From contig CAMXCT020001660.1 in assembly GCA_947184155.2 (NCBI GenBank), positions 1 to 64,000 of the forward strand: DNA of 64,000 nt, read 5' to 3'. This DNA is from Cladocopium goreaui. Taxonomy: Eukaryota; Sar; Dinophyceae; Suessiales; Symbiodiniaceae. The notes under the pieces are model-generated. The model saw nothing but the letters and a program-made list of their open reading frames with translations. It ran no database searches and was not told where the DNA came from. A program made the translations under genes and the position numbers. The number at the start of each line of letters is the position of its first letter. Within the stretch, counting starts at the first letter, position 1. Below are positions 564 to 17,745 of the stretch, piece by piece.

Positions 564-1148
564 CTACGGCAAGATTATTCCTGGACGATACTTGTGACAC
601 GAAAGACGTAAAAGGAAGGGCTGGGTGGCCCCAACAAACGTGGCACTGGACAAGAAGTCGGACTGCCTAATGCGCCACTCAGGTCTATACGTGTCTAACA
701 GCTCAACAATCGTGGTGTCATTCGAGACTTGAAAGGTGTCCCCATCAAGATCTTGATAACGTAGTTCAACGTCCGAAGTGGCCACCCGAAGATTGAATTG
801 CCGCCATAGGTTATGGCAAACGCCAAATCGTATGTTGCCCACTGGCATCTGATGGGCGACTTCCGCCGAGTATTGTTGTGTGAAGGTAAAAATGGCCTCC
901 AGCTCTTGAAGTGTAGCATTCTCAAAGTTGGACGGAGTGAGCTCCTCGAAATCCACGGCAAAGTCCCGGAGGCTCATATAGTCCACAATGGCAAACACTG
1001 GTCGGTCTGGCGGTGGAGTTGCCTCTGAGGTGGTCCCGCGACGGCCAGCAAACCAAGGGGCTTCGGCCGTAGTCCATGTAGAAGTCCTTTCCTGATATGG
1101 TTGGGCGCGTCGGGAGCTTGGACCAGTGCGCGAACGTTCCGAGGCCAT
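564..1148 (-). CDS. Hypothetical protein, WR-C paralogue family, member 1
   Basis: Intronless, 194 residues. I start at the ATG at 1148 because the longer frame (to 1352) runs into the neighbouring minisatellite and only adds repeat-derived residues; the protein begins MASERSRTGPSS. Not recognised by family. The N-terminal ~45 residues are Ser/Arg/Pro/Thr-rich and probably disordered. Near residues 120-165 there is a strand-strand-helix pattern (VELRYQDLDGDTFQV, then TIVELLDTY), followed by PEWR and, 25 residues after the Arg, FLLRLSC. The first part resembles a beta-grasp (ubiquitin-like) layout by eye. The same blocks occur in the gene at 4674-5375, and the WR...C tail recurs in the genes at 3514-4254 and 8770-9234, so I infer a diverged tandem family. 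The ubiquitin-like idea is inference only. Confidence 0.6.
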   Translation of the reverse strand: MASERSRTGPSSRRAQPYQERTSTWTTAEAPWFAGRRGTTSEATPPPDRPVFAIVDYMSLRDFAVDFEELTPSNFENATLQELEAIFTFTQQYSAEVAHQMPVGNIRFGVCHNLWRQFNLRVATSDVELRYQDLDGDTFQVSNDTTIVELLDTYRPEWRIRQSDFLSSATFVGATQPFLLRLSCHKYRPGIILP

Positions 1149-1254
1149 GATCACCAATTTGTCGAGAAACAAAGGACACCAGCAACTAACATCCTTAACA
1201 CAAAGCCTGCGAATGCAAAACAAGGAAATTGAAAGATGTTCTAGGTGTGGAATG

Positions 1255-3360
1255 CCTGACTCGGCTGTAGCAGTCGACATCAGGAAGGCGTCGCGTTTTT
1301 TTCCCCCAAGTATTGAACAGAAATTTGTTGACAACACCACTTTTGGTGACACTGTAATTTTCCAAAATCAACAAAAATTCAAAACGCCCAGCTTGTTACG
1401 GCTTTACCTACCCTGAATGCTTGCAGTTTCCCCCCCCCCCCCTTCATCAGGAAGGCGTCGAGTTTTTTCCCCAAGTGCTGAACCAAAATTTGCAAGGATC
1501 TGGACAAAAGAAATGTTCAACGCCCAGCTGGTAGCAGCTTTACCTGATGGCTGTAGCAGTCTTCATCAGGAAGGCGTCGAGTTTTTTTCCCCAAGTACTG
1601 AACCAAAATTTTCAACCACTTTTGGTGACACTGAAATGTTCAACGCCCAGCTGGTAGCAGCTTTTTTTACACCCAAACCTGATGGCTGTAGCCAGGCCCC
1701 AGGACTGAGCAACTAGGGAAATCCCGCCCAAAGCAGTCTTCATCAGGAAGGCGTCGAGTTTTTTCCCCAAGTACTGAACCAAAATTTGCAAAGATTTGGA
1801 CAAAACCAGTTTTGGTGACACTGAAATGTTCAACGCCCAGCTAGTAGCAGCTTGACCTGATGGCTGTACCAGTCTTCATCAGGAAGGCGTCGAGTTTTTT
1901 TCCCCAAGTACTGAACCAAAACTTGCAAAGATCTGGACACAACCACTTTTGGTGACACTGAAATGTTCAAACAAACAGCCCCGCTGGGGTACGCTTTAAC
2001 ACAACGCTTTACCTGATGGCTGTAGCAGTCTTCATCAGGAAGGCGTCGAGTTTTTCCCCCAAGTACTGAACCAAAATTTGCAGCTTTACCTGATGGCTGT
2101 AGCAGTCTTCATCAGGAAGGCGTCGAGTTTTTTCCCCAAGTACTGAACCAAAATTTGCAAAGATTTGGACAAAACCAGTTTTGGTGACACTGAAATGTTC
2201 AACGCCCAGCTGGTAGCAGCTTGACCTGATGGCTGTAGCAGTCTTCATCAGGAAGGCGTCGAGTTTTTTTCCCCAAGTACTGAACCAAAACTTGCAAAGA
2301 TCTGGACACAACCACTTTTGGTGACACTGAAATGTTCAACGCCCAGCTGGTAGCAGCTTTACCTGATGGCTGTAGCAGTCTTCATCAGGAAGGCGTCGAG
2401 TTTTTCCCCAAGTACTGAACCAAAATTTGCAAAGATTTGGACAAAACCAGTTTTGGTGACACTGAAATGTTCAACGCCCAGCTGGTAGCAGCTTTACCCG
2501 ATGGCTGTAGCAGTCTTCATCAGGAAGGCGTCGAGTTTTTTCCCCCAAGTACCGAACCAAAATTTGCAAGGATCTGGACAAAAGAAATGCTCAACGCCCA
2601 GCTGGTAGCAGCTTTACCTGATGGCTGTAGCAGTCTTCATCAGGAAGGCGTCGAGTTTTTTCCCCCAAGTACTGAACCAAAATTTGCAAGGATCTGGACA
2701 AAAGAACCAGCTGGTAGCAGCTTTACCTGATGGCTGTAGCAGTCTTCATCAGGAAGGCGTCGATTTTTCCCCCCAAGTATTGAATCAAAATTTGCAAAGA
2801 TTTGGACAAAACCAGTTTTGGTGACACTGAAATGTTCAACGCCCAGCTGGTAGCAGCTTTACCTGATGGCTGTAGCAGTCTTCATCAGGAAGGCGTCGAG
2901 TTTTTTCCCCCAAGTACTGAATCAAAATTTGCAAGGATCTGGACAAAAGAAATGTTCAACGCCCAGCTGGTAGCAGCTTTACCTGATGGCTGTAGCAGTC
3001 TTCATCAGGAAGGCGTCGAGTTTTTTCCCCAAGTACTGAACCAAAATTTGCAAGGATCTGGACAAAAGAAATGTTCAACGCCCAGCTTGTAGCAGCTTTA
3101 CCTGATGGCTGTAGCAATCTTCATCAGGAAGGCGTCGGGTTTTTCCCCCCAAGTATATTGAAGAGAAATTTGTTGACAAAACCACTTTTGGTGACACTGA
3201 CATGTTCAACCCCAGCTGGTAGCAGCTTTACCTAATGGCTGCAGCAGTCTTCATCAGGAAGGCGTCGGGTTTTTTCCCCCAAGTATATTGAATAGAAATT
3301 TGTTGACAAACCCACTTTTGGTCACACTGAAATGTTCAACGCCCAGCTGGTTGCAAGAAA
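1255..3360. repeat. Minisatellite, ~100-150 bp composite unit
   Basis: About 15-17 imperfect head-to-tail copies of a composite unit. Recurrent phrases are CTTCATCAGGAAGGCGTCGA, a T-run with C-run, AAGTACTGAACCAAAATTTG, and CAACGCCCAGCTGGTAGCAG. Copies differ by whether they carry the block TTTTGGTGACACTGAAATG, so the array mixes unit variants. It lies between two family members (564-1148 and 3514-4254) and runs into the 5' side of the first. Short open frames through it on both strands are repeat by-products. Confidence 0.9.
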
Positions 3361-3513
3361 CAATACAGATCGATGTGATGCATGTCATTTTTTTGCCAGG
3401 AAGAACGCGGCTCTTGTCGCTGGTATATGGTACATTTGCCAGGCGGGAGATATAGAGTTAACATCTCCAAAACAGGCAGCCAAACTAACCTATGGGAACC
3501 CGCTCAGTATCAT

Positions 3514-4254
3514 CTAGTGGCAGCCTACACCAAAATCACTCAGAGTCTCAATAGGGAGCGATCGATGCTGAAGCAGACGAGGATTGAGCTTGGCGGTTGG
3601 CTGATCGACCTCATATTTATCAGTGTGGCCAGGAATGACAGAGTATGGTTCACACACATGTAGCAGAAAGAATAACTTAAGCTGAGGCAAGGTGCTGCCA
3701 TCTCCAGAGATCTCGTCGATGCCATACCATCTTCTCCAATCGTTGGCAGTCCTCTGAGCTGAGGCATAGTCGTTGTGGATGCTGCTGAAGAATCTTTCTG
3801 GGGTCTTCCAAGTTATCCAGCCTTGCGGTGTTGTCTCCTTCACCCATAGCACGCTTCTGGAATTGTATGCAATTCTTATGAAGTCAATAGTATGGACGGT
3901 GCTCTCGACCGGTGGAGGGATCTCTGGTTGCAATGCATCTTGAACATCTTCTTGCAAGTTCCTCACAGTGTCTTCAATCAGTGTCCCACGAGTCAACTGG
4001 GCCCAATAGCGTGCGAAGTCAGCTGGAGATTCAGTGTCGGCAAGAGCTTCCATCATGAACAGAATTTGAATGGGCCTAATCTCGTTCATAGGGATTGGCC
4101 TGCCTGGAGAATCTTCGTCCCTCATGCACCCTGTTGATGATATAAGTGCCTTCACCAATTCCAAATTTGCCGGTCGTAGCCGATTTGCCACGCGAAGAGC
4201 TTTTTCTTCTATTTCTTGATCAGATCGATGTTGGCTAGCATTGGCAGGCGGCAT
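3514..4254 (-). CDS. Hypothetical protein, WR-C paralogue family, member 2
   Basis: Intronless, 246 residues, starting MPPANASQHRSDQEIEEKA at the ATG at 4254. The first ~45 residues are charged and probably helical (EIEEKALRVANRL, NLELVKALI). A middle helical stretch (RPIQILFMMEALADTE) and a Pro-rich linker (QPEIPPPVEST) follow. The C-terminal half contains RTANDWRRWYGIDE and then LKLFFLLHVCEP, placing the Cys 27 residues after the Arg; this is the spacing class shared with the other three family members. No catalytic motif or signal peptide is visible. Its neighbours are a minisatellite downstream and the member at 4674-5375 upstream, all on the same strand. Confidence 0.6.
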   Translation of the reverse strand: MPPANASQHRSDQEIEEKALRVANRLRPANLELVKALISSTGCMRDEDSPGRPIPMNEIRPIQILFMMEALADTESPADFARYWAQLTRGTLIEDTVRNLQEDVQDALQPEIPPPVESTVHTIDFIRIAYNSRSVLWVKETTPQGWITWKTPERFFSSIHNDYASAQRTANDWRRWYGIDEISGDGSTLPQLKLFFLLHVCEPYSVIPGHTDKYEVDQPTAKLNPRLLQHRSLPIETLSDFGVGCH

Positions 4255-4673
4255 GGCTTGCGTTCAAGCGGTTTCGGAATTATAGGTTACGTCAACAGCA
4301 TGGAATAAATATATCTCTGCCATGCGAAATGCATTAGCAGCTTTACGGTCGCTGCTTGCCCAATTAACCCTTTCGGAGAAGCAAGTTAATGCTGGACGGC
4401 AAAAATGATGCTGCGACATGCAATTGACAGCGAAATATTATTCCGGAATGTAAGTATATATATATTTATGTCAGTTTTGGACATGGTTCATTTTTGAACG
4501 TAGAAGGAAATTATAATCGTTCAATGGTCCCGATGCTGAAACACAAAGGTCAAAATAATAGTTCGAAGCAAAGCAGCGTCGGAAACCAAAAGACATCCAG
4601 AATGATATGTGGACTGCGGACTGGTTTAATTTTGCCGAAATCGATCACATATGAGACAAGTTCTTTGTACACA
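4255..4673. other. Intergenic, no gene seen
   Basis: Spacer between two same-strand genes, with a short TATATATATATTTATG stretch near 4452. It presumably contains the promoter and 5' leader of the downstream gene (3514-4254) and the 3' end of the upstream one; no recognisable signal was found. Confidence 0.5.
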
Positions 4674-5375
4674 TCATTTGAAGTGCATGTTGGCTACTTC
4701 GCCGGCCATTTTGGCGCTTGACGCTTCTGCCTCTGCCGCCGTGGCTCGCTTCTTCCACAGATCCTTATTCTTTTGCATCTTAGTCTCATCCTCTGGTGTC
4801 CAATGTAGGTATGCAGATGGTGGATCTGGGCGACTGACGTTCCCAAATGGTAGCTCAGGACACCAATTCGGGTGGCATGCCATTTCGAGGACAAAAGCCG
4901 CGTACTCATTGTCATGATCTTTGTGAGCCAAGTTTTCATAGAACTGCTTGGATCTCCATCCGGGGAAATTTGTTTCGAGCACATCTTCAATACTTTGCTC
5001 TGTGTCTCCAACTTCAAACGCACCTTGGCGTCCTAGGAAGGTCAAAGTGATTTCAAAAGTCCTGAATGTAAGACCAAAAGTCCTCTTCATATGGTCGCAA
5101 ATCTCTTCGGCAATGTCTGCTACCTTTGTTTTCCAAGTCCAGCCACCATATATGTACTTCCAGAATGTATAGAGAGACTTTTTGTCTGGCGGGCTCAGAT
5201 TCATGCTGTTGGAATCGCGCAAGCATTCAAAATGCGGAGAAACTCTGTGATACTTCTGCATGGGTTCGAGGCTGCACTGAATGATAATTGGTCTGTGCCA
5301 ATCTGCCCTTTTTTTTCCTCCCCAAGTTTCCGGCTGGGGAGATCGTGATCGTGATCTCATTCTATCATCCGCCAT
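4674..5375 (-). CDS. Hypothetical protein, WR-C paralogue family, member 3
   Basis: Intronless, 233 residues. I prefer the ATG at 5375 (MADDRMRSRSRSPQPETW) over an in-frame ATG at 5447, because an RS-rich N-terminus looks like a natural start and the extra 24 residues have no coding character. The Arg/Ser head may be a nuclear or nucleic-acid-binding tail (inference). Residues ~115-180 hold FEITLTFLGRQGAFEV, SIEDVLETNFPGWR and, 26 residues after the Arg, FVLEMAC. These align convincingly by eye with 564-1148 (VELRYQDLDGDTFQV, TIVELLDTYRPEWR, FLLRLSC). The C-terminus is a charged helix (WKKRATAAEAEASSAKMAGE). The predicted fold is a strand-strand-helix unit, possibly beta-grasp. Function unknown. 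Confidence 0.62.
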   Translation of the reverse strand: MADDRMRSRSRSPQPETWGGKKRADWHRPIIIQCSLEPMQKYHRVSPHFECLRDSNSMNLSPPDKKSLYTFWKYIYGGWTWKTKVADIAEEICDHMKRTFGLTFRTFEITLTFLGRQGAFEVGDTEQSIEDVLETNFPGWRSKQFYENLAHKDHDNEYAAFVLEMACHPNWCPELPFGNVSRPDPPSAYLHWTPEDETKMQKNKDLWKKRATAAEAEASSAKMAGEVANMHFK

Positions 5376-5779
5376 ATGTACGCTAAGAAAGAAAGTTGAG
5401 TTGATGCTAGTGGGTGCACGAGCAAACATGCTGCGCGTGTGATGCATGCCTCACAAACATATATGGGAAATCCGAAATGATTGCACCTCAATCATTTATG
5501 TTATGTATCTCTGTCTCTCTTTGTTTTATTTATCTTTTTTAAGATACATGATATTGTAAAAAGTGCATCTTTGAACTACAAAACGCCTGATTGAAATCAT
5601 GCATTTGATTCCTCACTGCTTTCCTAAATGGTGTAGATCGATTGCTTCAACAACATGCGGGGCAGCAGAATGCTCCATGCAGCAACTTCGCAATTCAATT
5701 CTGTGTGCACGCGATGGCTTTTTCAGTCTTGCGCAACAAGTTAGATAGCAACATGTCGCTGAGATTGGAGAGATATATA

Positions 5780-6100
5780 TTATCCATCGGCATCATTTGC
5801 CCATGTGTCGCCTAGCTCAGCAGTCGGTGACAAATCCACAGAACCCTCTGGGTTTCGAGTCTCAACCGTTCCATCCTCTGGGTTTCGAGTCTCATTCGAC
5901 AGCTGGTTCCAGGCAAGTTCATCTGAATCGGCTGCTAGGGTGTCCCACTTGCGTTTGATGCCTCGTATTTCGTCAGCAATGATGTTTTGTTTCTGTTCGA
6001 GTATCTGAAGCTGCACTTTGAGGTGCTGCAAACGATAATGAAGACGAGCAACAAGGTCAATAAGTTTGTGCACTGGCGACGGTGTTTCTGCGTTCGACAT
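5780..6100 (-). CDS. Small coiled-coil protein
   Basis: 106 residues, starting MSNAETPSPVHKLIDLVARL at 6100. Residues ~12-58 form a strong coiled-coil candidate with heptad hydrophobics (LIDLVARLHYRLQHLKVQLQ, then ILEQKQNIIADEIRGIKRKW). The C-terminal third is acidic and carries an internal duplication: ETRNPEDGTV then ETRNPEGSVD, encoded by a direct repeat (CCTCTGGGTTTCGAGTCTCA) near 5848 and 5877. It lacks the WR...C tail of its neighbours. It lies between two family members on the same strand and could be a partner of theirs, but only position supports this. Confidence 0.55.
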   Translation of the reverse strand: MSNAETPSPVHKLIDLVARLHYRLQHLKVQLQILEQKQNIIADEIRGIKRKWDTLAADSDELAWNQLSNETRNPEDGTVETRNPEGSVDLSPTAELGDTWANDADG

Positions 6101-6284
6101 GGCTGACTATAAAGAACAATTAGTTTTCTTTCTGCCTTGAAAAACTATACGCTACATGCAGTAAACGCTCTCATTACATGCATATGGAACCTTGCAGCTG
6201 CTTAACTGAAACGGACGTTGCAAAGAGCAATAGAATTTGTTTTCCAGATATTATAAGCGCTGGTCGATGCACCACAACATTGGC

Positions 6285-6482
6285 CCTGCGGGCCTTTGGC
6301 CTCACAGGCCCAGGAACTCCTGATTGTGGATATGTCCTGCATCAATTTACAGAGGAATTGGTAAATTTTAGACATGCTGCACAAACAGGAGTTCCGGAAC
6401 CTCTGGGCCTCACAGGCCCCGGAACTCCTGATTGTGGATATATGTCCTGCATCAATTTACAGAGGAATTGGTAAATTTTAAA
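6285..6482. repeat. Direct repeat pair, ~70-90 bp
   Basis: Two adjacent copies of a block beginning GGCCTCACAGGCCC, continuing CTCCTGATTGTGGATAT and ending CAGAGGAATTGGTAAATTTT (copies near 6298-6370 and 6408-6480). GGCCT(C)ACAGGCC is itself palindromic. No gene is visible here. Confidence 0.75.
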
Positions 6483-6537
6483 AACATCCAATGCTCACCA
6501 GGTGCTTGTCGAAGATGTTGTCCCCTCGTTCACCTCC

Positions 6538-7795
6538 CAATGCCGTCAGCTGGACGGTCCAGCTGACGGCTTTGAGTTAAGCAAGCTGTCAGCATGGCAC
6601 CTTCGAAAAAAAGCGTATCGACCAGCTTGTCGAAGCGCAAGTAGCATGGCAAACGGATCCACTTCCGGATGCCTGCAGCAAGGACGAAAATAACAAACAA
6701 GCAGCGTATCGTCGAGCTTGTCGAAGCATGTTGTCGCCATCATGCGATGATGCACGACCCCACTTGGATATGGCTCCAAGTGGGTCTCCCCAACCACCCA
6801 ACCTCCTGGGGGGACTCAAGGATCTACCCAACCCACGCCTCATAGGATATTTCCTCCAAGTTCTGGAGAGAATATACAATGAGGCCCTAGCCGGAAAAAC
6901 ACAAAAAGGACCAGATACATGGTCGGTGTCATACAGCTGAAAGATCGTTCGCTGAAAGGTCGATCAGTTGTATGGTGCAAACCACCAGAATTGAGGGATG
7001 TCGAAGATGTTGATCGTTCACCTCCCAATGCCGTCAGCTGGACGATCCAGCTGACGGCTTTGAGTTAAGCAAGCTGTCAGATGGACGACGGACTTCCACT
7101 ACCAATCGAGGACGCGCGCGGTGGCAGTACCTCTAAAGGATATGTGGCCGCTTCCGAAGTTCTTGCTTCGCATCAAGCATGATGCGCAGAGCGAGGCGAC
7201 TTTCGCACCTCAGGATCCCACTTGGATATGGTTCCAAGTGGGTCTCCCCAACCACCCAACCTCCTGGGGGGACTCAAGGATCTACCCAACCCAGGCCTCA
7301 TAGGATATTTCCTCCAAGTTCTGGAAAGAATATACAATGAGGCCCTGGCCGAAAAAACGCAAAATGTCGAAGATGTTGATCATTCACCTCCCAATGCCGT
7401 CAGCTGGACGGTCCAGCTGACGGCTTTGAGTTAAGCTAATTGTCAGATGGACGTGATGACGATGCTCTTGAAGTCTTGCAGTGCGTAGCCCAAACATTCG
7501 ACTGGCTCTCACCCGAGCGGCCCGGCCGCGGCATAAACCGGTGGAGGCCTGCGGGCATCTGGGCAGAAAAAAAACAGCATCGTTCCAGCGGGCGTGTCAA
7601 AGCCCTGTTGTCGCCATCATGCGATGATGCACGACCCCACTTGGATATGGCTCCAAGTGGGTCTCCCCAACCACCCAACCTCCTGGGGGGACTCAAGGAT
7701 CTACCCAACCCAGGCCTCATAGGATATTTCCTCCAAGTTCTGGAGAGAATATACAATGAGGCCTCATAGGATATTTCCTCACATACCACATGCAC
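6538..7795. repeat. Interleaved palindrome-bearing direct repeats
   Basis: Three imperfect copies (~365-490 bp apart) of a composite unit. One part is an odd palindrome with 14-nt arms, GCCGTCAGCTGGAC and GTCCAGCTGACGGC, around one base, at 6542-6570, 7030-7058 (one mismatch) and 7396-7424. The other is a ~125-bp block near 6759-6890, 7217-7350 and 7636-7765 that starts with a hairpin (CCACTTGGA...TCCAAGTGG) and ends at CAATGAGGCC. CTTGTCGAAG-type phrases are scattered between. Unit order differs between copies, which suggests rearrangement or repeated insertion. Open frames across it on both strands are repeat by-products. Confidence 0.8.
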
Positions 7796-7859
7796 GTCGA
7801 GCTTGTCGAAGCCCTAGCATGGCAAAAGGATCCACTTCCGGATGCCTGGCAACAATACC

Positions 7860-7955
7860 ATTTAAATTCTTACAAGCACGCGGACAGCAATGTGGTACGT
7901 GAGGAAATATCCTATGATACCACATGGCTGTCCGCGTGCTTGTAAGAATTTAAAT
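7860..7955. repeat. Long perfect-armed inverted repeat (hairpin)
   Basis: A 29-nt arm at 7860-7888 (ATTTAAATTCTTACAAGCAC onward) is matched exactly in reverse complement at 7927-7955. One unpaired base on each side is followed by a second 8-nt arm pair (7890-7897 with 7918-7925), leaving a 20-nt loop. The loop sequence GAGGAAATATCCTATGA is in turn the inverse of TCATAGGATATTTCCTC at ~7770-7786 upstream, giving nested inversion. Candidate non-autonomous inverted-repeat element or replication-fold product; no coding content. Confidence 0.85.
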
Positions 7956-8769
7956 TTGAAATTCCTCAAAAAGTCGACTTTTTGAGTATACTATATACCC
8001 TTTTTATTGAAAATTCAACAATATATAGAGCCTGGATCAGAAACCGCAGAAGGTGAGTGAGGCGCGATGTGCCTCACTCACACTCTGAAGTCTGAGCGGC
8101 ATCGTCACGAGTTCACGAGTCCACGTGGTCAATAAGGAACACGATTGAACTGCCTGATGTGCTCTTGCAGGCTAAATTGAACTGATTGATGTGCTCTTGC
8201 AGGCTTTAGATCTGCCTGTCAATGGCCAAAATTGGTTCCAACAGCTCTTGCATGGTGGTCGTCAAATTCGGCTTGCTTCCAAAAACTGCCATTGCCAAAA
8301 GTAATGCTTTGAAATTTGCATGGCTTTGAAATTTGCATGATCGACCAGTGGAAACTTTGATGGTGCTACATTTTCCTCGATCGTGTTTCATCAAACAAAA
8401 ATGAAACGAATATTCACTATTTCCCCTATAGATCATTGTCAAGAATAAAACATGTTTTTTGATTTGCTGGATGTTTCTGGAAATTGAAGAAGGACAATTG
8501 ATATATTTTGAAAGGTTTCAGTATTTGTTCAAACTGTATTTGAATTTATTTGCATCCAAATCTAACAGGAGAAATGGCTACGGAAACCAAAAAAACGTGT
8601 GGCCATGAAACAAATCGAACTGCAGCTGATATCACAACTGGCTGATATCACACAACTACGGGATGCACACACTCAAGTTTGCAATGCACATGATACTGTA
8701 CTTTTTCGTCAGTCAAACAACGTTGGAGGTTGAATTGTGGTGCTATTGTTCCCAATTCGATTTTCTACT
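7956..8769. other. No gene seen
   Basis: AT-richer spacer with a short direct repeat (CTGATGTGCTCTTGCAGGCT near 8154 and 8186) and no convincing open frame on either strand. It lies just downstream of the gene at 8770-9234. Confidence 0.5.
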
Positions 8770-9234
8770 TCACTGAATTGAAAGCGTCAACCAAGAACAA
8801 GAGATCTTCCAAAAAAAAAACTCATCTGGTGCGGTCTCTGAGCCATCACGTTGTTCCAAACAGTACGTACGCATCTTCATCAATGCTGCCTCTGCACAGC
8901 TCGTGCTGTCAAGGAAACCTCTGTCATTATGATGCAAAGAACGCCAAGATTGGATCTTCCAAGCGGCAATCGATGTCACGTCGGCCGGGCGTGGCAAAAC
9001 ATCTTCTGAATGTGGGTAACCACGTTTTTCGTCCCAGATGCGGCATGTCATGTCTGCTGTGATGTACAGGTCTTCAATCGATGCCAAAGCCCTGGTTCTT
9101 CCGATATTTTTCAAAGTCCGTCTGGCCCAATCCCTAAGCAACTCTATGTGTTCAACTGGTATTTCGTGATCTTCTTCTGCACTATTCCACATCCAGTTGA
9201 AAAAAAATTGCACCAATGCCAGCTGCATTGACAT
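8770..9234 (-). CDS. Hypothetical protein, WR-C paralogue family, member 4
   Basis: 154 residues from the ATG at 9234 (MSMQLALVQFFFNWMWNSAE). The frame stays open to an ATG at 9396, which would give 208 residues with a hydrophobic head, so the start is uncertain. After an acidic segment come helices (HIELLRDWARRTLKNIG) and SIEDLYITADMTCRIW. The tail has IQSWRSLHHNDRG and then ALMKMRTYC, with the Cys 27 residues after the Arg, matching the spacing of the three other family members. There are no known motifs. It is the most upstream member of the minus-strand cluster and the most diverged. Confidence 0.5.
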   Translation of the reverse strand: MSMQLALVQFFFNWMWNSAEEDHEIPVEHIELLRDWARRTLKNIGRTRALASIEDLYITADMTCRIWDEKRGYPHSEDVLPRPADVTSIAAWKIQSWRSLHHNDRGFLDSTSCAEAALMKMRTYCLEQRDGSETAPDEFFFWKISCSWLTLSIQ

Positions 9235-9396
9235 AGGCAGCGCAATATATACAACAAAGCGATCGAGCAAAACAGCTTTGTCGAAACCAACCATGCAGGT
9301 TCCAAAAAAACATTGCAAATTTAGAATTACCATTTGAGTCATGAATAAGCTTTCATATAATCTTACAAGACAATGAACGCGTTCGATGCACCACAA

Positions 9397-9984
9397 TCAA
9401 TTCATGACTGTTGCGTCCCTCACGCTGCAGAGCACCAGGATTCAATGCTCTGCAAAGCACACTCACTATAATTGATATAGTGATTGCCCTGTGGGTTACC
9501 CTCACTGGATGAGGACACTAACATCTTGTTGGGATGGAGGCACGTATACACAGGCTCATTTGCAAGTCCTAGCAGCCGGCCCCTAAATCCCTTCAATTAA
9601 TGCGGCGGAAATGAATGATTTTAGTTGTATTTTTCCTTTTTATAGCACACAATTTGTTTGAAAAAACGTTCATGCAATATGAAAACTGATCAGTTCAGTT
9701 TACATCAAAAACAACAAAAATATATAAAAATTATTTTTATATATTTTTTAAAATATTTTTTATTTTATATATATATAATTTTTATATATATATATATATA
9801 TAAAATAAAAATTATATATTAATATATAAAATTTTATTTTTGAATTTTATATAAATACATAATTTTTATTTTATATATATATATAATTTTTATATATATA
9901 TAATTTTTATTTAAATACATAAAAATTATGTATTATATAAAATTTTATGTTATTTGATCCTTATGGACTGCCATTGGGAGGCTG
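9397..9984. other. Non-coding spacer with AT block
   Basis: No open frame of note. From ~9715 to ~9950 the sequence is almost pure A/T (TATATAAAATTTTTA-like) and self-complementary. It separates the minus-strand cluster from the plus-strand relic that follows. Confidence 0.6.
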
Positions 9985-12013
9985 GTGCAAGTACTGGCTG
10001 ATGCGTATCGCGTCACTGAATCCGTGGTCAAGGATCGGTTCCAGTTGGAGTCGGTCTTACCGTTTTTGGAGAAGAAGAACATTCCTGGACAAGTTGAACA
10101 CCCTGTAGAAGAAGAACCTAGGAGTATCCTAAAACGGGGGGATAAATTCAAAAGGGGTAACTCAAAACCAAAAAGGGTTCATTTTTGGGATGAAAATCCA
10201 CCAATTTTGAAAGTTTTGCGGGTACAAGATCACCACGGTCATGTTGCCCAAGTGCACAGTTCGGGAAAAGAAGAACCGGATGGTCTTGGGGATGGACAAG
10301 AGAAAAATTGGGACTTGGATTGCGTCAGGTCCATGCGAAAAGACCATCGAGCTGCCGAAGTTGTACCAAGGTCGGGTTCCACAGAGCCGAGGGATCTGGT
10401 TGCAACTCGGGGAATGGGGTTTTTGGGGAATTCGGATGTGATAGTTAAGGGAAAAATTCATCCTGAAACCTCAAGGGGGATAGCTCCGCAACCAACGGTA
10501 TTTCAGTATTTTTCCGTTAGGGAATTGGGGTTGTCCGCAACAATTTATTTTTTCCAAAAGTTTTGGGCTCAAAAGCGTCCTCGTCTGCCTTGCTGCACCA
10601 GTGACAGCTATGGACGGTGAAGATGCTTCGCAAGGTGTCAGTTTTTCGGCATACTTTATGCCATGATGGTCATCTTGGTGTGGGAAGTCTTCCGATGGCT
10701 TATGGGCCACTTGATGCTCCTGATGGTACCTCAGTTCAATCGACAAATGGTGGAACAAGCTGAACTGATGGTGAAGTTGGCCCCGAAATATCAAAGAAAA
10801 GATGTACGTGGGGAAGAAGATGAGCCTCAGGAAGAAGAAACACGTCCGGGAGAAGATCATCGATTAGAAAAAAAGAAGAAAAACCGAAGAGAGGGATGCG
10901 GACCGAGCCCGTGAAAAAAAGGAAAAAAGAAGAGACCGTCGGAGACGGGGTGAAACAGGGCGATCTAGGTCGCCGCACAGGGAAACGGAACCGACAATAA
11001 GGCGATCGGAGGGTGAAAAAAGCCCAGGCCCTTCTGCAGCCGAATCGCAAGAATCGGGGAGGGTCGCAAAGGGACCAATAGCTCCGCTACCAGAAGGTAT
11101 GAAAGCCCCTGGGAGACCGCCACCGAAAAGACCACCGATGCCAACTCTCAAGAAAGAAGAAAATTTTCCCACCGATGAGGAAGAATGGGGAAAATGGAAG
11201 GAACAGAGAGAAGGAGAAAAAATTGCTGATTACCTTACACGGATGAGATCAGTCTATGGAAAGGAAAAACCTGCAGGGCCAACGGAAATACCTGCGGAAC
11301 CGGCCCAAGCCTCCTCCTCTAAGGCAGCTCCTAAGGCAGCGGCCTATTATGAAGTGGATGGAGGAGACTGGTATTGGTGGGATGGCGCATGGGGTGACAA
11401 GTGGGAGCCGAAAAAGAAAAAGAAGAAGAAGAACAAGCACACGGAAGCTGAATGGTAACATTGGTACAAGGAGCATCCGGATGAGGACACTGAGTCTTCC
11501 CAAACACCGAGAAGGCCAGCAGAACCGGAGACTCCTCCACCGGCCCAACGACCAAGAATTCGTCCGGGACAAGATTTAATTCGACGTCCTGAAATGGACA
11601 GTCTACATGCCAGAGGTGGTCATGCGTGAGGTGGAATACATCATCTCAGGAGATGATACAGCATGGATGACGAAGCCACCGGCCGCAAAAGGCTTTGAAG
11701 AACAGGGACAGGCCATCGACATGTGGGAAGTTCCAGTCCCTGGGGAATATGGACGAATCATCACAAGAATCCATTACAAGTGGAGACAGAATTCGTTTCA
11801 TCCGGATCACCCCACTTTACCGAAAAAGGTCGACCAGTTGGATCCTTACAGGGTCACATTTTGTGGAATACCCTGGACAGCAATGAGCGAAAAATAATCT
11901 TGTATTTCGACTGGGAGACCAAGTGGGTCGAAGACAAGTGGGTGGGATACACCGTTTTCTTTGTCAAACATGACCCAAGGGATGTGGTGAAGAACTCACC
12001 TAAAAAGGAATAG
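9985..12013 (+). pseudogene. Degenerate retroelement-like coding relic
   Basis: Several plus-strand frame segments read as one decayed protein once frameshifts are allowed. Segment 1 (9985-~10240) includes EPRSILKRGDKFKRGNSKPK. A shift near 10240 moves to a frame with REKKNRMVLGMDKRKIG and KTIELPKLYQGRVPQSRG. Segment 3 (10663-10870) has MVEQAELMVKLAPKYQRK then a Glu/Lys-rich run; a shift in the A-run at ~10868-10880 leads to a frame that stays open to 11458 (SRSPHRETEPTIRRSEGEKS, EEEWGKWKEQREGEK, YEVDGGDWYWWDGAWGDK). Another piece starts at 11607 (MPEVVMREVEYIISGDD). The basic, Arg/Ser- and Trp-rich style suits a gag-like or polyprotein relic, but I saw no protease, integrase or reverse-transcriptase motif, so the retroelement label is weak. 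Confidence 0.4.
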
Positions 12014-13283: not shown

Positions 13284-13795
13284 TGCGTGTACGTATGTAC
13301 GTATGTACGTATGTACGTATGTACGTATGTACGTATGTACGTATGTACGTATGTACGTATGTACGTACGTACGTATGTACGTATGTACGTATGTACGTAT
13401 GTACGTATGTACGTATGTACGTATGTACGTATGTATGTATGAATGATGTATGTATGTATGTATGTATGTATGTATGTATGTATGTATGTATGTATGTATG
13501 TATGTATGTATTAATGTAATGTATGTATGTATGTATGTATGTATGTATGTATGTATGTATGTATGTATGCAGTTAATGCATTGTAAATGTATGTATCAGG
13601 AAGCATTTATGCCTGTAATTATCATGTATGCATGTATGCATGTATGCATGTATGCATGTATGCATGTATGCATGTATGCATGCATGTATGTATGCATGCA
13701 TGCATGCATGCATGTATGTATGTATGTATGCATGCATGTATGTATGTATGTACGTAATGTATGTAATGTATGTAATGTATGTACGTGTATGTGTG
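13284..13795. repeat. Compound microsatellite TACGTATG / TATG / CATGTATG
   Basis: Three successive arrays: (TACGTATG)n to about 13430, (TATG)n to about 13570 with a few interruptions, then (CATGTATG)n from ~13622 to ~13745 ending in GTATGTAATGTAT-type units. All are variants of a purine-pyrimidine tetranucleotide. The tyrosine/valine/cysteine/methionine-type frames through it are artefacts. It is bordered on both sides by degenerate copies of the 29-bp satellite. Confidence 0.95.
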
Positions 13796-14334
13796 TGACG
13801 ATAATGCGTGTGAAAGATGGCGTGTGTGAAAGTGACGTGAGTGCGCGACAGTGCAGACATTTTTTTGCCAGCGCTGCAATGTCATCTGCTCTGCATGCGG
13901 CAGCACTGCGGACCTGGAATGGGCTGAATGAGGTGTTCCATGATCTTCTGTGCTCCATGTGGTGCAACGAGATGTGCTACGTGACAACCGCGCCTGTCCT
14001 ACAGCCACGAATCCGACGATGATGACATAGAGGAAAGGTACCTGGCCGCAAAAGTGTAGAACACGAATGTAGCTGGTTGTCAATGCAACTATGGAAGACA
14101 AGTGCAGAGCGCATGCCTGTCAAGTCACGACACAGTCACAGTGGCAAGCACCATGGTTATGACGCTAACTGTGCAGTTTTTTTTCAAACATGTCAACCAA
14201 CCACAAATTTGACCACATCTTTGACTGCGCTAAGCTTATTAACAAAACGTGTGCAAATACCAAAAATCGAACTTGAAATCGAACTTGACTGACTATGTCA
14301 TTGATTCGGTATGCCGGAGCGACCCGAGTAGCAA

Positions 14335-17100
14335 ACATCATCTGCCACGCAAAACGATGGTACATGTGAGTTTGTGCCACGCCTGCCACGCAAAACGACG
14401 GTAGATGTGAGTTTGTGCCGCGCCTGCCACGCAAAGTGCCGCGGCGTCACGGGCGACTAAACCAAGACCAAGCGCGCCACCCAGTGCCACCCAGTGCCAC
14501 CCAGTGCCATCTGTGCCACGCCTGCCACGCAAAACGACGGTAGATGTGAGTTTGTGCCACGCCTGCCACGCAAAACGACGGTAGATGTGAGTTTGTGCCG
14601 CGCCTGCCACGCAAAGTGCCGCGGCGTCACGGGCGACTAAACCAAGACCAAGCACGCCACCCAGTGCCATCAGTGCCACGCCTGCCACGCAAAACGATGG
14701 TAGATGTGAGTTTGTGCCACGCCTGCCACGCAAAACGATGGTAGATGTGAGTTTGTGCCACGCCTGCCAAGTTTGTGCCGCGCCTGCCACGCAAAGTGCC
14801 GCGGCGTCACGGGCGACTAAACCAAGACCAAGCGCGCCACCCAGTGCCATCTGTGCCACGCCTGCCACGCAAAACGATGGTAGATGTGAGTTTGTGCCAC
14901 GCCTGCCACGCAAAACGACGGCAGATGAGTTTGTGCCGCGCCTTCCACGCAAAGTGCCGCCGCGTCACGGGCGACGAAACCAAGACCAAGCGCGCCACCC
15001 AGTGCCATCAGTGCCACCCCTGCCACGCAAAACGATGTAGAATGTGAGTTGAAAATGCCCGCCTGCCACGCAAAAACGACTGGTAGAAAAGATGTGAGTT
15101 TGTGCCGCGCCTGCCACGCAAAGTGCCGCGGCGTCACGGGCGACTAAACCAAGACCAAGCGCGCCACCCAGTGCCATCAGTGCCACGCCTGCCACGCAGA
15201 ACGATGGTAGATGTGAGTTTGTGCCACGCCTGCCACGCAAAACGACGGTAGATGTGAGTTTGTGCCGCGCCTGCCACGCAAAGTGCCGCAGCGTCACGGG
15301 CGACTAAACCAAGACCAAGCACGCCACCCAGTGCCATCAGTGCCACGCCTGCCACGCAAAACGATGGTAGATGTGAGTTTGTGCCATGCCTGCCACGCAA
15401 AACGATGGTAGATGTGAGTTTGCGCCACGCCTACCACGCAAAACGACGGTAGATGTGAGTTTGTGCCGCGCCTGCCACGCAAAGTGCCGCCACTAAACCA
15501 AGACCAAGCGCGCCACCCAGTGCCATCAGTGCCACGCCTGCCACGCAAAACGATGGTAGATGTGAGTTTGTGCCACGCCTGCCCACGCAAGACGACGGTA
15601 GATGTGAGTTTGTGCCGCGCCTGCCACGCAAAGTGCCGCGGCGTCACGGGCGACCACGCGGGGCACCCAGTGCCATCAGCGCCACGCCTGCCACGCAAAA
15701 AGATGGTAGATGTGAGTTTGTGCCACGCCTGCCACGCAAAACGACGGTAGATGTGAGTTTGTGCCGCGCCTGCCACGCAAAGTGCCGCGGCGTGACGGGC
15801 GACTAAACCAAGACCAAGCACGCCACCCAGTGCCATCAGTGCCACGCCTGCCACGCAAAACAATGGTAGATGTGAGTTTGTGCCACGCCTGCCACGCAAA
15901 ACGATGGTAGATGTGAGTTTGTGCCACGCCTGCCCACGCAAGACGACGGTAGATGTGAGTTTGTGCCGCGCCTGCCACGCAAAGTGCCGCCACTAAACCA
16001 AGACCAAGCGCGCCACCCAGTGCCATCAGTGCCACGCCTGCCACGCAAAACGATGGTAGATGTGAGTTTGTGCCACGCCTGCCACGCAAGACGACGGTAG
16101 ATGTGAGTTTGTGCCGCCTGCCACGCAAAGTGCCGCGGCGTCACGGGCGACTAAACCAAGACCAAGCGCGCCACCCAGCGCCATCAGTGCCACGGCTGCC
16201 ACGCAAAACGATGGTAGATGTGAGTTTGCGCCACGCCTGCCACGCAAAACGATGGTAGATGTGAGTTTGTGCCACGCCTGCCACGCAAAACAACGGTAGA
16301 TGTGAGTTTGTGCCGCGCCTGCCACGCAAAGTGCCGCGGCGTCACGGGCGACTAAACCAAGACCAAGCACGCCACCCAGTGCCATCAGTGCCACGCCTGC
16401 CACGCAAAACGATGGTAGATGTGAGTTTGTAACACGCCTGCCACGCAAAACGATGGTAGATGTGAGTTTGTGCCACGCCTGCCACGCAAGACGACGGTAG
16501 ATGTGAGTTTGTGCCGCGCCTGCCACGCAAAGTGCCGCGGCGTCACGGGCGACTAAAACAAGACCAAGCGCGCCACCCAGTGCCATCAGTGCCACGGCTG
16601 CCACGCAAAACGATGGTAGATGTGAGTTTGTGCCACGCCTGCCACGCAAGACGACGGTAGATGTGAGTTTGTGCCGCGCCTGCCACGCAAAGTGCCGCGG
16701 CGTCACGGGCGACTAAAACAAGACCAAGCGCGCCACCCAGTGCCATCAGTGCCACGGCTGCCACGCAAAACGACGCAAAACGATGGTAGATGTGAGTTTG
16801 TGCCATGCCTGCCACGCAAAACGATGGTAGATGTGAGTTTGTGCCACACCTGCCACGCAAAACGACGGTAGATGTGAGTTTGTGCCGCACCTGCCACGCA
16901 AAGGGCGACTAAACCAAGACCAAGCGCGCCACCCAGTGCCATCTGTGCCACGCCTGCCTTGCAAAACGATGGTAGATGTGAGTTTGTGCCACATCTGCCA
17001 CGCAAAGTGCCGCGGCGTCACGGGCGACTAAACCAAGACCAAGCGCGCCACCCAGTGCCATCAGTGCCACGCCTGCCACGCAAAACGACGGTAGATGTGA
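14335..17100. repeat. GC-rich higher-order satellite, 41-bp and 78-bp modules
   Basis: The 41-bp module (GTGCCACGCCTGCCACGCAA, then AACGATGGTAGATGTGAGTT) is tandem in runs of one to three and alternates with a 78-bp module containing GCCGCGGCGTCACGGGCGAC and ACCAAGACCAAGC. This yields higher-order units of about 160 or 201 bp, for example between the CGTCACGGGCGAC landmarks near 16336, 16537 and 16698. Roughly 15 higher-order units are present. The modules lack stops in several frames, so long open frames appear on both strands; these are not genes. Confidence 0.95.
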
Positions 17101-17745
17101 TATGTGAAAGATGGTTTGTGACAAAGTTGTATGTGAAAGATGGTGTGTGACAAAGGTGGGTGTGAAAGATGGCGTGTGACAAAGTTGTATGGGAAAGATG
17201 GTGGTTGACAAAGTTGTGTGTGAAAGATGGTGTGTGACAAAGTTGTATGTGAAAGATGGTGTGTGACAAAGTTGTGTGTGAAAGATGGTGTGTAACAAAG
17301 TTGTGTGTGAAAGATATTGTGTGACAAAGTTGTATGTGAAAGATGGTGTGTGACAAAGTTGTATGTGAAAGATGGTGTGTGACAAAGTTGTATGGGAAAG
17401 ATGGTGGTTGACAAAGTTGTGTGTGAAAGATGGTTTGTGACAAAGTTGTATGTGAAAGATGGTGTGTGACAAAGTTGTGTGTGAAAGATGGTGTGTGACA
17501 AAGTTGTGTGTGAAAGATAGTGTGTGACAAAGTTGTATGTGAAAGGTGGTGTGTGACAAAGTTGTATGTGAAAGATAGTGCGTGACAAAGTTGTATGTGA
17601 AAGATGGTGTGTGACAAAGTTGTGTGTGAAAGATAGTGTGTGACAAAGTTGTGTGTGAAAGATGGTGTGTGACAAAGTTGTGTGTGAAAGATGGTGTGTG
17701 ACAAAGTTGTATGTGACAAAGTTGTGTGTGAAAGATGGTGTGTGA
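17101..17745. repeat. 29-bp satellite
   Basis: About 22 tandem copies of a 29-bp unit, GTGTGTGACAAAGTTG followed by T(A/G)TGTGAAAGATG. Degenerate copies also occur at ~13215-13280 and ~13790-13830, on the far side of the other two arrays. Confidence 0.95.

Follow-up and report, generated by a model that had tools for sequence, protein, structure and literature searches.

A tandem gene cluster of Cladocopium goreaui as probable accessory cargo of a retroelement lineage

The dinoflagellate Cladocopium goreaui carries a tandem cluster of intronless genes at the start of contig CAMXCT020001660.1 (assembly GCA_947184155.2), which we analyzed within the first 64,000 nucleotides of that contig (the window; C1660:1-64000 in our labels, where C denotes a contig and L a fetched locus). 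The original prediction had read four of its open reading frames (ORFs), P1 to P4, as a local, undescribed, and fast-evolving family with a common tail. Having searched the 1.166-Gb assembly (6,202 contigs), we conclude that the cluster probably belongs to a retroelement lineage, as an accessory-gene unit related to a dispersed element that carries counterparts of P1, P2, and P3. Most likely, its genes are cargo of a retroelement whose mode of action would resemble that of Penelope-like elements, a class that we infer, as we do the function of the cargo. All four ORFs exist on the minus strand as had been described, namely P1 (564..1148, 194 amino acids), P2 (3514..4254, 246 amino acids), P3 (4674..5375, 233 amino acids), and P4 (8770..9342, 190 amino acids), the last probably starting at 9342 rather than at 9234. 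An additional gene, P5 (1..265, minus strand), is truncated by the window edge; it is whole (190 amino acids) in a copy on contig C5976, where P6 (171 amino acids) comes after it, just outside the window.

The dispersed element was reconstructed from 17 loci (L012 to L028) that we picked from the 143 distant P3 matches given below, fetched with their flanks, and compared. Its order is a gag-like ORF, an ORF resembling reverse transcriptase (RT) and GIY-YIG proteins, a Myb-like ORF, a P3-type ORF (P3t), a P2-type ORF (P2t), a P1-type ORF (P1t), and a second P2-type ORF (P2bt). Matches to the Myb-like ORF, P3t, P2t, P1t, and P2bt occurred in that order in all 17 loci, with ORF intactness varying by locus. 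The RT-like match precedes these accessory ORFs in every locus except L015; eight loci keep an unbroken RT frame of 908 residues, seven have it broken or deleted, and in L027 it is cut by the contig end. The gag-like ORF (481 amino acids) lies upstream of the RT in the copy that was read furthest. The Myb-like ORF matched Myb_DNA-bind_6 just below the Pfam cutoff (E of 6.6e-4). As a separate observation, the end of the P3-type ORF in L028 is partially duplicated in frame (4509-5522), giving a 338-amino-acid frame.

The window proteins are homologous to those of the element. P1 is 39 to 43% identical to P1t over ~195 amino acids (best E of 1e-47), P2 is 35% identical to P2t over 107 amino acids (E of 2e-14), and P3 is 27% identical to P3t over 127 amino acids (E of 2e-16); P1-type proteins of the element also matched P6 (E of 7e-6). 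Within the element, P1t matches P3t (E of 4e-12) and P2t matches P2bt (E of 1e-5), so the element carries two duplicated families. In a tree, P1 grouped with P1t (support of 94/99) and P3 grouped with P3t (84/88); the tree tool marked each of the four window proteins as a long branch of unsure placement, and P5 and P6 were left unplaced. An ORF of 106 amino acids (5780..6100, minus strand), coiled-coil-like by eye, occupies the slot before P3 and, judged by its position alone, may correspond to the Myb-like ORF; a sequence comparison of the two gave no match.

The family had been called local, which the rest of the genome does not support: P1, P2, and P3 each have well over 100 scored relatives there. 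These genome counts are lower bounds. Among the best 150 of 725 candidates, P3 occurs at four places at 98 to 100% identity (the window, C5976, C324, and C1728), with 143 matches at 24 to 28% and three matches from one broken copy on C5153. P2 occurs at four places at 99 to 100%, with three partial or broken matches and 143 more distant ones (best 150 of 707), and P1 at three places at 99 to 100% and at 147 places at ~44 to 49% (best 150 of 1,058). P4 had 18 matches in the whole genome. After one P4 homologue at L047 (377-1027; 27% identity, E of 2.5e-13) comes an open frame of 537 amino acids (1389-2999) that looks coiled-coil by eye, and this 3-kb stretch had no match to element ORFs below an E of 0.08. 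Outside this genome, five scans of viral contigs and one scan of prokaryote genome contigs, each using a few short peptide patterns, confirmed no relative.

We then considered whether P1 to P4 are one family. P1 and P3 are homologous over 121 residues (BLASTP E of 8e-10), so the similarity that had been noted between two members is real and is about twice as long as the ~60 residues proposed. Profiles of P1-type (n = 5) and P3-type (n = 3) proteins matched each other with a probability of 98.8, an E of 6e-17, and a score of 110, against a maximum of 20.4 in 60 shuffles. P3 also matched P5, both truncated (E of 2e-4, all-against-all) and complete from C5976 (E of 3e-11). P1, P3, and P5 have N termini that had been thought unrelated and are in fact alike, beginning with MA(S/D), a Ser/Arg-rich stretch, and an RPV/RPI strand. 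P2 gave a best BLASTP E of only 0.42 with P3, and a comparison of nine P2-type proteins with the P1/P3 profile had a probability of 0.13 and a score of 13.4 (maximum of 16.9 in 60 shuffles). Likewise, the P1/P3 profile against P4 and its homologue scored 13.5 (maximum of 17.6 in 60 shuffles), and the P4 profile gave probabilities of 0.05 and 0.16. These comparisons indicate that P1, P3, P5, and P6 are a true paralogue family, P2 a second family, and P4 a third; the description as fast-evolving paralogues thus stands for the first four and fails for P2 and P4. A single four-gene family with a shared WR...C tail, which is what the eye sees in the layout of all four proteins (WR, a spacer of 24 to 26 residues, and Cys), is highly improbable, because P2 and P4 fall within the shuffle range against P1/P3, the Cys is not conserved in P2 relatives, and the P4 homologue at L047 lacks WR...C.

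The tail was also rejected as a family mark, being nonspecific and not kept among relatives. The spacer, said to be 25 to 27 residues, is 24 in P1, 26 in P2, 25 in P3, and 26 in P4 on the translations. Across its six frames, the window holds 10 instances of WR-x(25-27)-C uninterrupted by a stop, seven of them outside the four ORFs; the pattern misses P1, and at that frequency it is not significant alone. In the P1/P3 family, the P3-type element proteins and one P1-type protein (L025) lack the Cys; Pro-x-Trp is invariant in the eight aligned proteins, among which the Arg varies, and P5, outside that alignment, has the Trp and no Pro. In the P2 family, with the motif TWKxPExF ... RTAxxWRxxY, WR is invariant in nine aligned proteins and the Cys occurs in P2 alone. 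The families can still be called undescribed in that no Pfam family reached its cutoff for the window ORFs or the element ORFs scanned. Subthreshold Pfam matches to RinB and ZapB were set aside. In sequence searches of the Protein Data Bank (PDB), P3 matched sucrose phosphorylase (E of 0.007; six entries nearly equal in length and score) and P1 matched a halogenase (E of 0.3), and both results were judged to be chance.

The original prediction had guessed at a beta-grasp fold, and a structure model of P1 backs this. The AlphaFold2 model, built from eight sequences, had a mean predicted local distance difference test (pLDDT) value of 68.8, with blocks of 79 to 92 over residues 81 to 160 and values below 45 for the first 40 residues. 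Its top Foldseek matches in the PDB were a PB1 domain (4mjs, E of 1.3e-3), a chain of a tubulin-cofactor complex (9eds_E, 1.4e-3), and the RAWUL domain of RING1B (3ixs, 2.7e-3), all with Foldseek probabilities of 0.99 to 1.00; SUMO1 (4wjp) had a target template modeling (TM) score of 0.72 and an E of 0.044. In the model, the Trp lies in a helix (157-168) and the Cys in a strand (178-188). Unlike PB1, RAWUL, and ubiquitin-like domains, the model has a helical insert after the first strand. Counting against this assignment, none of the 343 PDB matches reached an E of 0.001, with query TM scores of ~0.23 to 0.37 in the 50 matches listed. None of the 104 matches in the viral library reached an E of 0.001 either, and the Pfam PB1 match of P1 had 13 bits against a gathering score of 23.6 (E of 0.1). 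Given these caveats, the model supports a predicted beta-grasp fold of the PB1/RAWUL/ubiquitin-like kind for P1, and the P1-type and P3-type gene kinds would share this ubiquitin-like fold.

All five accessory ORFs of the element are under purifying selection. The median ratios of nonsynonymous to synonymous substitution rates (dN/dS) were 0.08 for the RT (15 of 15 pairs), 0.13 for the Myb-like ORF (28 of 36), 0.09 for P3t (28 of 36), 0.19 for P2t (31 of 36), 0.19 for P1t (31 of 36), and 0.25 for P2bt (24 of 28), with median dS values of 0.57 to 1.01. Pairs were excluded if dS was ≥1.5 or ≤0.02; only open frames were used, from 6 to 9 loci per gene, which favors copies that are intact, and the frames include some residues ahead of the likely starts. 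Among the best 50 of 1,877 candidates, every RT copy was ≥98% identical and 48 had no in-frame stop. The element is abundant and apparently young.

The class of the element rests on its large ORF and on its ends. In six aligned RT proteins, a putative RT motif order is invariant (GRPIVS, DLAGFFTSI, RGSPMGSPLSP, RYVDN, and FLGF), as are the two Asp residues of motifs A and C and the residues Y89, Y103, G105, R114, E165, and N177, whose roles would be GIY-YIG-like. These six proteins are 86 to 97% identical to the first of them, so the invariance says little. MGSPLSP and RYVDN look Penelope-like. Penelope-like elements with an N-terminal GIY-YIG domain (the Chlamys/Naiad type) were reportedly described by Craig and colleagues in 2021. 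The present element, a candidate relative, is like that type in having a putative GIY-YIG-like region before the RT-like part of a single ORF, direct repeats at its ends, copies joined head to tail, and a protist host, and differs from it in its five conserved accessory ORFs, its length of ~13 kb, a YVDN in place of YxDD, and the lack of a hammerhead among our matches.

Several results weigh against a retroelement lineage of this kind. The 908-amino-acid ORF matched RVT_1 (E of 0.028) and GIY-YIG (residues 88 to 174, E of 0.19) only under the Pfam cutoffs; at an E of up to 1, RVT_1 was matched by five of the six aligned members and GIY-YIG by one. PDB sequence searches with the RT protein returned no match, and its AlphaFold2 model was unusable (pLDDT of 31). 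Our reading covers the element apart from ~3.06 kb of its 5' part, of which a 5' leader was seen in other copies.

The element is flanked by terminal direct repeats of 553 bp (approximately L022 8138-8690). A second copy of this repeat was seen in 16 matches among the best 40 of 2,956 candidates. In nine contigs found by both end searches (best 40 of 2,956 and best 40 of 482), it lies 3,062 to 3,063 bp upstream of the junction at L046-5195. C2347 itself stands apart from these nine, another repeat being nested at its junction, and the C5754 copy runs from 82763 to ~95872, or 13.1 kb by match coordinates. Eleven of the 17 loci gave the 12 repeat ends listed. TG comes next at 10 of these ends, in some as a long TG repeat and in others as hardly more than the dinucleotide, and the remaining two run into the 5' leader ATTTCC. 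In L012, L018, L019, and L021, this leader stands immediately after a repeat end, so some copies lie head to tail, and the joins run via one terminal repeat (L012 and L018) or two adjacent repeats (L019). In the two 5' flanks examined, C5754 has TGTGTCTGT on both sides of the element and C1307 has only TG repeats; because the ends are TG rich, a target duplication is uncertain. L046-5195 itself was rejected as the 5' end of the element, since that junction is the edge of the repeat nested in the C2347 copy. This different repeat (L046 1-5194; C2347:408200-413393) has FGKG/LEKA-rich ORFs, and its last 1.7 kb was matched at 92 to 100% in 16 other places among the best 40 of 482.

These ends leave room for an LTR (long terminal repeat) retrotransposon or an unnamed retroelement class instead of a Penelope-like element, an alternative that we regard as possible and somewhat doubtful. 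Direct terminal repeats of 553 bp and a gag-like first ORF speak for it, as does the single GIY-YIG match among six members. The terminal repeat speaks for it too: a hammerhead ribozyme there is common in Penelope-like elements, although not present in all, and no Rfam family reached its gathering score in nine loci, nor was a hammerhead matched at an E of up to 5 in L022 8000-8760. (A mir-297 match at the 3' junction reflects repeat sequence, scored far under the gathering threshold, and was set aside.) However, no integrase, RNase H, or protease was matched in the element ORFs scanned, a scan outside which lie the first 171 gag-like residues and the ~3.06-kb 5' part. The GIY-YIG-like residues kept in the six close kin, the head-to-tail joins through one or two repeats, and the motifs that look Penelope-like likewise speak against an LTR element. 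A class like that of Penelope-like elements remains, to us, the most likely one.

Two other published systems come close. Terminons are giant Penelope-like elements at rotifer telomeres, described as endonuclease deficient and attached to telomeric repeats (PMC6431247). They share with the present element an RT, several accessory ORFs, and head-to-tail arrays, whereas the present element has a subthreshold GIY-YIG-like region, 3' junctions mostly at TG, and other accessory genes. The flanks at the listed 3' ends do not look telomeric by eye. Dinoflagellate retrotransposons are also reported to have acquired cytosine methyltransferases and so, like the present element, carry an extra gene (PMC5890265); that gene is a methyltransferase, and the extra ORFs here are Myb-like, beta-grasp, and P2-type. 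Among the titles and abstract openings listed from one open-access library, from which most subscription papers are absent, none described such a dinoflagellate element.

The window cluster itself forms a unit that has diverged, is low in copy number, and has a sharply defined 5' edge. It matches C5976 (98 to 99%), C324, and, in part, C1728. The boundary at window 9966 (minus strand) is common to C324, C5976, C513 (90%), C302 (88%), and C3184 (82%), whose matches start at query positions 334 to 336. The flank at ~9966-10300 is another dispersed repeat, most of whose 334 bp are matched by at least 33 other places. At the C5976 edge, the unit abuts different sequence that by eye encodes CCHC-like zinc knuckles. 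The broken P3 copy on C5153 adjoins sequence that matches L045 4603-5994 at 71%, so DNA from past P6 seems to have traveled with it. The collinear homology to the element at 27 to 43% identity (full length for P1 and ~105 to 130 residues for P2 and P3) points to ancestral constraint on the window genes. Among unit copies, differences in P1, P2, P3, and the 106-amino-acid ORF are few, mostly nonsynonymous, and free of indels, and P4 keeps its frame in only some copies, having a one-base gap in those of C5976 and C1728; these differences do not demonstrate present constraint on the window copy.

Other features of the unit cut the other way. Between C324 and the window, 2 synonymous and 7 nonsynonymous codons differ over P1, P2, P3, P4, and the 106-amino-acid ORF. 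C324 and C5976 share the next 6 kb downstream as well, ~16 kb in total, so this pair may have arisen by segmental duplication. Neither the window nor C5976:235000-250999, 16 kb of a unit copy, yielded an RT. The last point fits an alternative in which the cluster is an ordinary host tandem array, its genes being the host originals from which an ancestral retroelement captured a copy as cargo. Near-identical copies are also few among the matches scored (four of P3, four of P2, and three of P1), the ORFs past P6 in L045 have no match to element ORFs at an E of 0.01, and many dinoflagellate genes lie in tandem arrays (PMC11453091). The matches scored are the best of longer lists, and no specific search was made for a single-copy orthologous array. 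Against a host array, the unit is itself dispersed, with a sharp shared edge and decayed copies, and we consider that explanation unlikely. Membership in the retroelement lineage remains the probable reading, and being retroelement cargo would better explain the absence of introns than the retroposition of host genes that had been suggested. The 21-base dinoflagellate spliced leader has 172 exact copies in the assembly and none for its reversed control, as fits a dinoflagellate; the window holds no match to it at up to 3 mismatches in 21 or 1 in 12, and retroposed host genes with spliced-leader relics were rejected.

A mechanism can be proposed for this lineage. In the manner proposed for Penelope-like elements, the RT/GIY-YIG-like protein would nick TG-containing DNA and copy element RNA there by target priming. 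Spliced-leader trans-splicing could turn the packed ORFs into separate mRNAs; pyrimidine-rich AG contexts were seen by eye upstream of some ORFs. The Myb-like protein may bind element DNA, and the beta-grasp P1 and P3 types might serve in the element ribonucleoprotein as interaction subunits of a PB1- or ubiquitin-like kind, or else provide adaptors to host factors. On this view, the window unit would be a nonautonomous or RT-stripped relative carrying accessory genes. More tentatively, and with a good deal of doubt, dinoflagellates may harbor multigene retroelements in which the duplicated ubiquitin-like proteins, the Myb-like protein, and the second duplicated family are obligate parts of transposition. 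The window unit would then exemplify satellites that lack the RT, retain the accessory genes alone, and are perhaps moved in trans.

Other features of the window are repeats. An AT-rich imperfect palindrome lies at the 5' edge of the unit (9709..9955; self-inverted match, 74%), and tandem repeats of 119 to 137 bp between P2 and P1 (1442..3355) are common to the C5976 and C324 copies, with rearrangements. Between the 106-amino-acid ORF and P4, at 6500-7800, one segment recurs as several near-repeats, which the C1728 copy (L011) has in rearranged form. Beyond the unit, 13288-17731 holds large simple arrays and tandem arrays of 29 to 201 bp, where many long open frames look like repeat artifacts. 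Searches of the window for tRNAs and Rfam families found none.

Tandem single-exon genes are numerous in dinoflagellate genomes, often with no clear origin, and these results suggest that such an array can be retroelement cargo, for which a search for an RT-bearing relative in the same genome is a direct test. A high-copy retroelement of ~13 kb with five accessory ORFs under purifying selection would widen the known cargo of Penelope-like elements, and the role of accessory proteins in retrotransposition would become open to experiment.

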